Positions 12,896-13,795 of a stretch of 17,309 bases of DNA are shown here, one piece after another. Every line of letters starts with the position of its first letter. The first letter of the stretch is position 1. The translations under genes were made by a program, and so were the position numbers. The DNA comes from Desulfobacterales bacterium (lineage in GTDB: Bacteria > Desulfobacterota > Desulfobacteria > Desulfobacterales > BuS5), in NCBI GenBank assembly GCA_016735355.1, contig JAERRQ010000391.1, positions 1-17,309 on the forward strand, given 5' to 3'. The notes beneath the pieces are model-generated. The model worked only from the letters and a program-made list of their open reading frames with translations. It had not been told where the DNA came from and ran no database searches.

Positions 12896-13300
12896 TCAAG
12901 ACCTGGGGGTGATTTCATCAAGTAGGGCGGGGTGGTTATCCAAGAGTTTAAACAGGTTCGTGACCGATTGCATGGGTTTGGCTTTGCCGCGTTCGTAGCG
13001 GGAGAATGCGTTTCGCCCTCCCCCGGTTAGCAACGCAGCTTCCTGCTGTGTCAGTTTGAGTTTTTTACGAATTCTTACAAGTTCAGCCGATTCTTTTGCA
13101 TCAATTTTCCTGGCGAATTGTTTGATGGCTTCGGCAAAGCGCACACCTTCGCCTGCATCGAATTCAACTTCCCCGCAATGGCAACAGTGCCATCCCTTGA
13201 CCCCGGGAATAACGGTATGGTGTCCTTTATAGGTATATGGCACATCCCGAACAGTATGCACCATCTCTTTTTGTTCGCAATTCAGACAGTCGCGTTTCAT
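12896..13300 (-). CDS. mqsA: MqsA-type antitoxin, zinc-ribbon plus HTH
   Basis: The 134-residue protein has the full MqsA architecture. The zinc-binding N-terminal domain has C5, C8, C39 and C42 (DCLNC and CCHC) plus the RDVPYTYKGHHTVIPGVKGW core. The C-terminal XRE-type HTH has LKLTQQEAALLTGGGRNAFS, then RYERGKAKP. N97 and R101, the DNA-contact residues of E. coli MqsA, are conserved at the same positions. It would neutralise MqsR and repress the operon. The start at 13300 lies one base after the vestigial mqsR stop and has AAGGAG 10-15 bases upstream. Toxin and antitoxin order matches E. coli mqsRA. Because mqsR is wrecked, this is now an orphan antitoxin, possibly kept as a regulator. Confidence 0.92.
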   Translation of the reverse strand: MKRDCLNCEQKEMVHTVRDVPYTYKGHHTVIPGVKGWHCCHCGEVEFDAGEGVRFAEAIKQFARKIDAKESAELVRIRKKLKLTQQEAALLTGGGRNAFSRYERGKAKPMQSVTNLFKLLDNHPALLDEITPRS

Positions 13301-13455
13301 CTCATTTCTCCTTGAACTGGATCACTATAGACCCATCATGGCGTATATAACCTTGACATAGGCTATTCCGGAAAGCGTTTCCGGGTGGTAAACATCCTGC
13401 CAAATTTGGCTTGATGCATGGGTCGTCATACTTTTGTAAAAATCGGATCGACCCA

Positions 13456-13578
13456 TGGAACAAACCATGCCTATCCGGTTGACACAGGTTGATTATCTTT
13501 GCATGGCGAAAAATTATATATTATCAAACAGATAGCCTTTATTCACCTGTGCTAACCGGATAGGCGTGGAACAAACCA
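13456..13578. mobile_element. MITE-like 99-bp element with terminal inverted repeats and 12-bp direct repeat flanks
   Basis: The perfect direct repeat TGGAACAAACCA occurs at 13456-13467 and 13567-13578. The 99 bp between them (13468-13566) begin and end with 22-bp imperfect inverted repeats, TGCCTATCCGGTTGACACAG plus GT and its counterpart, matching at 19 of 22 positions. The interior is AT-rich and encodes nothing. Deleting the element and one direct repeat (111 bp) restores the mqsR reading frame exactly (VVCS joined to MGRSDFYKSM), so this is an insertion with target duplication. No transposase is present, so it would be mobilised in trans. A 12-bp duplication is unusually long for small IS-derived elements. 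Confidence 0.85.
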
Positions 13579-13665
13579 CTTCGATTGCTTGACCAATTTC
13601 AAGTCCCATTGTCTGAGCGCCGATCAATGCCGTTGCGGTAAAAGCGTCCGCACCGCGTAAACGAA

Positions 13666-13741
13666 CGCCGGCTGTTGGAGGAACTCAGCAGCCGGCGATA
13701 AGCGCAACCGTGTGCGTAGCGTAGCTCACGGTTGCGCTTAT
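13666..13741. repeat. Double-hairpin palindromic repeat inside mqsR
   Basis: Two adjacent inverted repeats are present: a 9-bp pair CGCCGGCTG/CAGCCGGCG (13666-13674 and 13689-13697), then a perfect 15-bp pair ATAAGCGCAACCGTG/CACGGTTGCGCTTAT (13698-13712 and 13727-13741) with a 14-base loop containing GCGTAGCGTAGC. The GC-rich structure resembles REP/BIME-like palindromic units and interrupts MqsR between AVQSA and ADAFTA. On RNA it would form strong stem-loops. Confidence 0.85.
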
Positions 13742-13795
13742 AAGCGGATTGTACTGCTTAAAGGTCGTAATGCGGTTTACGTTTTTCCATAAATT

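Follow-up and report, generated by a model that had tools for sequence, protein, structure and literature searches.

The analyzed window, a 17,309-nucleotide stretch of genomic DNA from a Desulfobacterales bacterium, contains an mqsA antitoxin gene and, adjoining it, a broken mqsR gene (Table 1). Within this mqsR-like gene, identical 12-bp direct repeats TGGAACAAACCA at 13456-13467 and 13567-13578 bound a segment with an inverted repeat (13465-13489/13545-13569) of 25 nt at 88% complementarity. The list of open reading frames has none of 60 aa or more that overlaps 13466-13568. The preliminary description took this segment for a 99-bp mobile element with a 12-bp target duplication; the perfect direct repeats on which it relied are indeed identical, and the pairing of 19 of 22 positions that it gave for the ends is correct by direct reading.

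Table 1. Features of the mqsRA locus and of the insertions in mqsR (window coordinates)
Feature	Position	Strand	Evidence
mqsA antitoxin gene, open reading frame adjoining mqsR	12896..13300	-	Pfam MqsA_antitoxin 7.2e-44 (12899-13300)
C-terminal fragment of broken mqsR	13328..13465	-	Pfam MqsR_toxin 6.8e-14; MqsR of PDB 3hi2_B 1.9e-9
8-bp target duplication GAACAAAC, left copy	13458..13465		compared with other copies
103-bp MITE (non-autonomous IS1595-type element), CATGCC...GGCGTG	13466..13568		same 103 bp at C260 and C199, 0 mismatches
Left terminal inverted repeat, 24 bp, 21/24 paired with right one	13466..13489		
Right terminal inverted repeat, 24 bp	13545..13568		
8-bp target duplication GAACAAAC, right copy	13569..13576		compared with other copies
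Middle fragment of broken mqsR	13571..13648	-	pairwise alignment with intact homologues
112-bp interval with second, unrelated repeat insertion in mqsR	13649..13760	-	exceeds four intact homologues by 76-79 bp
First ten mqsR codons, in-frame stop directly after	13761..13790	-	

A search of the source genome with 13456-13578 yielded two more copies, one on contig C260 and one on C199. All three agree without mismatch over 103 bp (13466-13568 in the window) and are flanked by different 8-bp sequences, GAACAAAC in the window, GTTCATAC in C260 and GTTTCTTC in C199; the direct repeat of the C260 copy measures exactly 8 bp. Because the copies agree over 103 bp between different 8-bp flanks, and because the C260 repeat stops at 8 bp, the element spans 103 bp and its target duplication 8 bp, instead of 99 and 12. 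Thus, the inverted-repeat segment of the preliminary description is real, but its boundaries were misplaced and its target duplication was four bases too long. In the window, the 8 bp of target were preceded by TG and followed by CA, and the element has CA at its start and TG at its end, which extends the apparent repeat to 12 bp; the outer TG and CA of the 12-bp repeat are element ends that match the target by chance.

Short (103 bp), bounded by 24-bp terminal inverted repeats, free of a transposase gene and dispersed as three identical copies with three different target duplications, the segment has the features of a MITE. The preliminary description had named a lack of other copies as grounds for giving up a small non-autonomous mobile element; the two further identical copies, found in the source genome with different flanks, uphold its reading. 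Because the three copies are identical, the element has probably moved recently. A pattern search for its ends in the same genome, with up to three mismatches allowed, returned eight ends that make up four elements, against no match to the control pattern. One relative on contig C26 is 134 bp long, has only the ends in common with the window element and carries the duplication CTTCAGTC.

The single-stranded DNA of 13466-13568 folds with z = -5.54, and none of 200 shuffled sequences folds as well. So strong a fold would also suit a static hairpin, such as a terminator, a REP-like sequence or a structured RNA, that does not move at all. The identical copies with different 8-bp duplications contradict this, as do Rfam matches far under the gathering scores (29 vs 80 bits), and we consider a static hairpin very improbable. 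The Rfam hits were to miRNA models, at 24.2-29 bits with gathering scores of 80 and 90, and were dismissed as chance matches.

Some observations concern the genes around the copies. Toxin-antitoxin genes contain or neighbor two of the three copies; a sample of three is too small to give this meaning. The C199 copy (L021) is about 290 bp from a hicA/hicB-like pair (L021, 7-458), in which the HicB-like protein passes its Pfam cut-off and the HicA-like protein, at 25 bits, falls just below its cut-off of 27. At C260 (L020, 762-1490) and C26 (L022, 768-965), host reading frames enter the element and end in PCLSG. For the protein that runs into the C260 copy, Pfam gives a sub-threshold rhodanese match alone, and its tail looks PEP-CTERM-like; the corresponding C26 protein matches MauE.

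The ends of the element are found far beyond its own genome. A scan of the genome collection with a 20-bp end core gave 48 stretches, with record titles that include Desulfobacterales, Desulfobacteraceae, Thermodesulfobacteriota, Deltaproteobacteria, beta- and gammaproteobacteria, as well as Kiritimatiellae, Nitrospirota, Chlamydiae, Anaeromyxobacter and others. The survey comprises 27 paired elements, 23 of them 103-384 bp and four 1102-1105 bp long. This count leaves out all seven rows of the viral-collection contigs L096, L097, L099 and L101, elements lying 15 bp or less from the end of a locus, exact duplicates, and pairs with more than seven end mismatches in total or with neither end within two mismatches. 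The 24-bp ends of the window element read CATGCCTATCCGGTTRRCACAGGT, and other MITEs with different interiors carry the same ends.

A perfect 8-bp duplication flanks 20 of the 27 paired elements, at 19 distinct targets. In these 20, the matching run is 8 bp in nine elements, 9 bp in four, 10 bp in one, 11 bp in five and 12 bp in the window element alone. The other seven (L023, L024, L029, L032, L055, L075 and L129) have no perfect 8-bp duplication, the repeat of L024 matching at 7 of 8 bases. The 19 targets show a palindromic preference, with G followed by W-W at one end and W-W followed by C at the other; at either end, 13 of the 19 carry the G or C, and W is preferred two bases further out.

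In the viral collection, elements with TGCCTATCCGGTTAGCACA-like ends abut one another in three contigs (L097, L099 and L101), with about 12 bp between them that hold TTAATCAT or ATGATTAA. Repeated insertion at one site is a possible explanation. L097 and L101 also carry a relative of the IS1595 transposase at 38-39% identity.

The parent family is indicated by the long members of the survey. Three elements, L035 (1102 bp), L068 (1102 bp) and L047 (1105 bp), have the same ends, exact 8-bp duplications in all three cases and a gene for a 348-351-aa protein. These proteins score 190.5 (L035), 196.3 (L068) and 165.2 bits (L047) with the NCBIfam IS1595 transposase model NF033547, which has a cut-off of 75 bits, and all three exceed the cut-offs of Pfam DDE_Tnp_IS1595 (PF12762) and Zn_ribbon_IS1595 (PF12760). 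The fourth full-length element, L129, is 83% identical to L035 in DNA over 1013 bp; its frame is interrupted, the longest related ORF having 204 aa, and it lacks a perfect duplication. The link between transposase and ends rests on the three intact elements and on L129 with these defects. With tblastn at E 1e-5, the L035 transposase matches 15 of 54 loci (48 genome stretches and six from the viral collection), many of the matches being short remnants or truncated where a contig ends.

The duplication length points the same way: IS1595 members are usually bounded by 8-bp duplications according to an excerpt of PMC8101967, and an excerpt of PMC12561309 reports an 8-bp duplication generated by ISApl4. 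Taking the ends, the duplication length and the partner transposases together, we assign the element to IS1595, and with high confidence regard 13466-13568 as a MITE of this family, presumably moved in trans with an 8-bp duplication. Weighing against this are the lack of IS1595 transposase matches in the source genome and its genus (see below), the seven paired elements that have no perfect duplication, the interior of the window element, which matches no full-length element, and the first bases of the ends, which differ from those of ISApl4. The full transposon with the same ends that the preliminary description proposed to look for does exist, although L035, L047 and L068, the autonomous elements that match the MITE ends, all lie in other genomes.

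The element is real and of a kind already known, IS1595, and its suggested attribution to an undescribed family has to be withdrawn, as the full-length partners with the same ends encode IS1595 transposases and have 8-bp duplications. The case for a new family that makes a 12-bp target duplication was the perfect 12-bp direct repeat at the window site. Of the other 19 elements whose duplication is perfect, none reaches 12 bp, the identical C260 copy has exactly 8, and the full-length partners are IS1595, all of which makes such a family highly unlikely. The IS4/IS231 type makes 10-12-bp duplications, and the 12-bp repeat, taken alone, would also fit a mobile insertion cassette of that type, whose ends may resemble those of the element. 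Against 8-bp duplications and three intact full-length partners that encode IS1595 transposases, the probability of such a cassette is close to nil.

With the ends, the duplication length and the parent family settled, the claim of a new transposon family is removed, and the IS1595 family gains MITEs with a common 24-bp end. Among the titles and abstract openings listed in literature searches, none reports an IS1595-derived MITE, which is not proof of absence. The locus also shows how misleading it can be to assign a family from a single insertion, since a target similar to the ends of the element lets the duplication appear longer than it is.

A natural mechanism for the IS1595-type MITE would be that an IS1595 transposase, with its zinc ribbon and DDE-type domain, is supplied in trans and recognizes the 24-bp ends of the element. 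Integration would proceed by an 8-bp staggered cut, with AT-rich targets of the form GWWNNWWC favored. The helper that would have mobilized the element may then have been lost, or may have been left unassembled.

Known members of the family share some of these properties. ISAcr1 and its relatives, of the IS1595 family, occur on Acidiphilium and other plasmids, and proteins annotated as ISAcr1 family share 50.2% identity with the L035 transposase. At E 1e-40, 36 plasmid records match this transposase, all at less than 60% identity, and seven of the best 20 of the 36 bear the ISAcr1 family annotation. The ISAcr1 copy on pACRY03 has TGCCTATCCGGTTGAC in its left end and no 8-bp repeat that could be seen by eye, and a 51% relative on Rhizorhabdus pDC08 has the ends CGTGCCTATCCGCTTGACGCA and, by eye, the 8-bp repeat GAAACATG. 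The ends of ISAcr1 and its relatives diverge from those of the window element beyond about 16 bases; the latter, moreover, is 103 bp long and has no transposase. The ends of ISApl4 start with GG in the excerpt of PMC12561309, whereas those of the window group start with CATGCC or TATGCC.

Closer are L035 (Desulfobacteraceae RAAP-1), L068 (Nitrospirota) and L047 (Thiocystis minor), whose 20-24-bp ends are almost those of the window element and which likewise have 8-bp duplications; unlike the window element, they carry the 348-351-aa transposase, and its interior matches none of them at E 1e-3. A MITE of 151-152 bp (L028, L042, L049 and L055) also has similar ends and 8-bp duplications in three of four cases, two of them with the same duplication, but it is about 49 bp longer than the window element and one of its ends reads GGTTATCTCAGG. 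Outside the family, MITEPye1, as described in an excerpt of PMC11578231, is likewise short and gene-free, with direct repeats and the ends of a known IS family; there, it is linked to IS1182 rather than IS1595.

Judging by sequence, some of the MITEs that carry these ends seem to have arisen from full-length elements by deletion. L041 has 155 bp at 78% and L071 has 101 bp at 80% identity in common with the full-length L035. For the interior of the window element, no full-length element was matched at E 1e-3; 49 bp of this interior are 90-92% identical to the 151-152-bp MITE, from two other assemblies. The window element has matches in 3 of 96 related genomes including its own, the other two by the ends only. 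An end with at most one mismatch occurs in 17 of 389 genomes of the order, its own included, and the reversed control pattern in three.

The L035 transposase has no match in the source genome, which is 82.8% complete; an empty result proves nothing by itself, but this query did find matches (E 1e-20) in 9 of 96 relatives. Likewise, Pfam DDE_Tnp_IS1595 (PF12762) has no match in the three genomes of the genus, a search in which the control matched in 1 of 14. The element may thus be an orphan, or, since the source genome is 82.8% complete, its helper may have been left unassembled. Another scenario is that a transposase of a different IS family tolerates these ends and moved the element. It would account for the absence of an IS1595 transposase from the genus searches alongside three identical copies, that is, probably recent movement. 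The 8-bp duplications and the matching full-length IS1595 elements make an ordinary helper sufficient, however, and the source genome is incomplete, so a mover from another family is improbable. For the IS1595-type MITEs a broader scenario can be offered only tentatively, and we consider it possible but doubtful: orphan MITEs would spread within one order, and perhaps between phyla, without the transposase settling, through briefly resident helpers that leave identical copies in IS1595-free genomes.

The insertion truncates mqsR, because the reading frame reaches a stop within the element after 18 codons. Element and one duplication together measure 111 bp, which is divisible by three, and the frames on the two sides are in register. 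The three mqsR pieces were aligned separately, unjoined, to MqsR homologues of relatives at 9 of 11 loci (L141 and L146 were left out). For four of the nine homologues (L135-L138), the residue at which the middle piece stops is also the one at which the last piece begins, the pattern expected of a duplicated target. L139 fits only when extrapolated, L140 and L143 give no exact agreement, and the alignments of L142 and L144 score weakly and are perhaps in the wrong frame. The middle fragment, of 26 aa, has no Pfam match when searched alone, and PDB then gives an unrelated weak match.

The preliminary description saw here an exact rejoining of the frame, and with it a clean picture of mqsR before and after insertion. 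The rejoining holds for the insertion itself, by length, frame and the residue shared in the four homologues, but the gene so restored would still have the early stop and the second repeat. Since mqsR has at least two lesions besides the MITE, the stop after residue 10 and the second repeat, the site documents the insertion clearly without offering a contrast between an intact mqsR and a disrupted one.

The second repeat lies between the first and middle pieces of mqsR, which are 112 bp apart compared with 33-36 bp in L135-L138. The extra DNA at 13649-13760 (best match 13674-13741) is 80-87% related to a dispersed repeat of the genus, present in 2 of 95 other genomes searched, both from the same genus. 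In one relative, G002, a query with a G002 copy found the repeat at 35 places and as one 30-bp fragment; nine of the matches listed correspond to the other arm of this hairpin. The repeat forms several hairpins, in which differences between copies keep the stems paired, as judged by eye.

In G002, 18 copies, all on one strand, lie at 3.968-4.036 Mb (C1 3967970-4036447), and a further six, also all on one strand, at 789-812 kb (C1 789474-812138). By eye, 22 of these 24 clustered copies directly abut attC-like sites that end in GTT. A hairpin test for attC was applied to 48 sites, 24 on the repeat's own strand and 24 at the other arm: 41 exceed the 95% control value, among them 18 of the 24 own-strand sites, and one site exceeds the control maximum. 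The attC reading was thus made mainly by eye and is in part supported by the hairpin test. The gene of an integron integrase (TIGR02249, above cut-off) occupies G002 3966820-3967764, and the copy at 3967970 lies about 200 bp away. The second repeat may be a separate element that targets cassette junctions, or it may belong to the cassette design, and it may prove a more interesting object and a better lead than the MITE. At four G002 positions (C1 792790, 3976572, 4024528 and 4036377), what is presumably the 3' end of an intron of group IIC-attC type, on the opposite strand, seems to follow an attC-like site.
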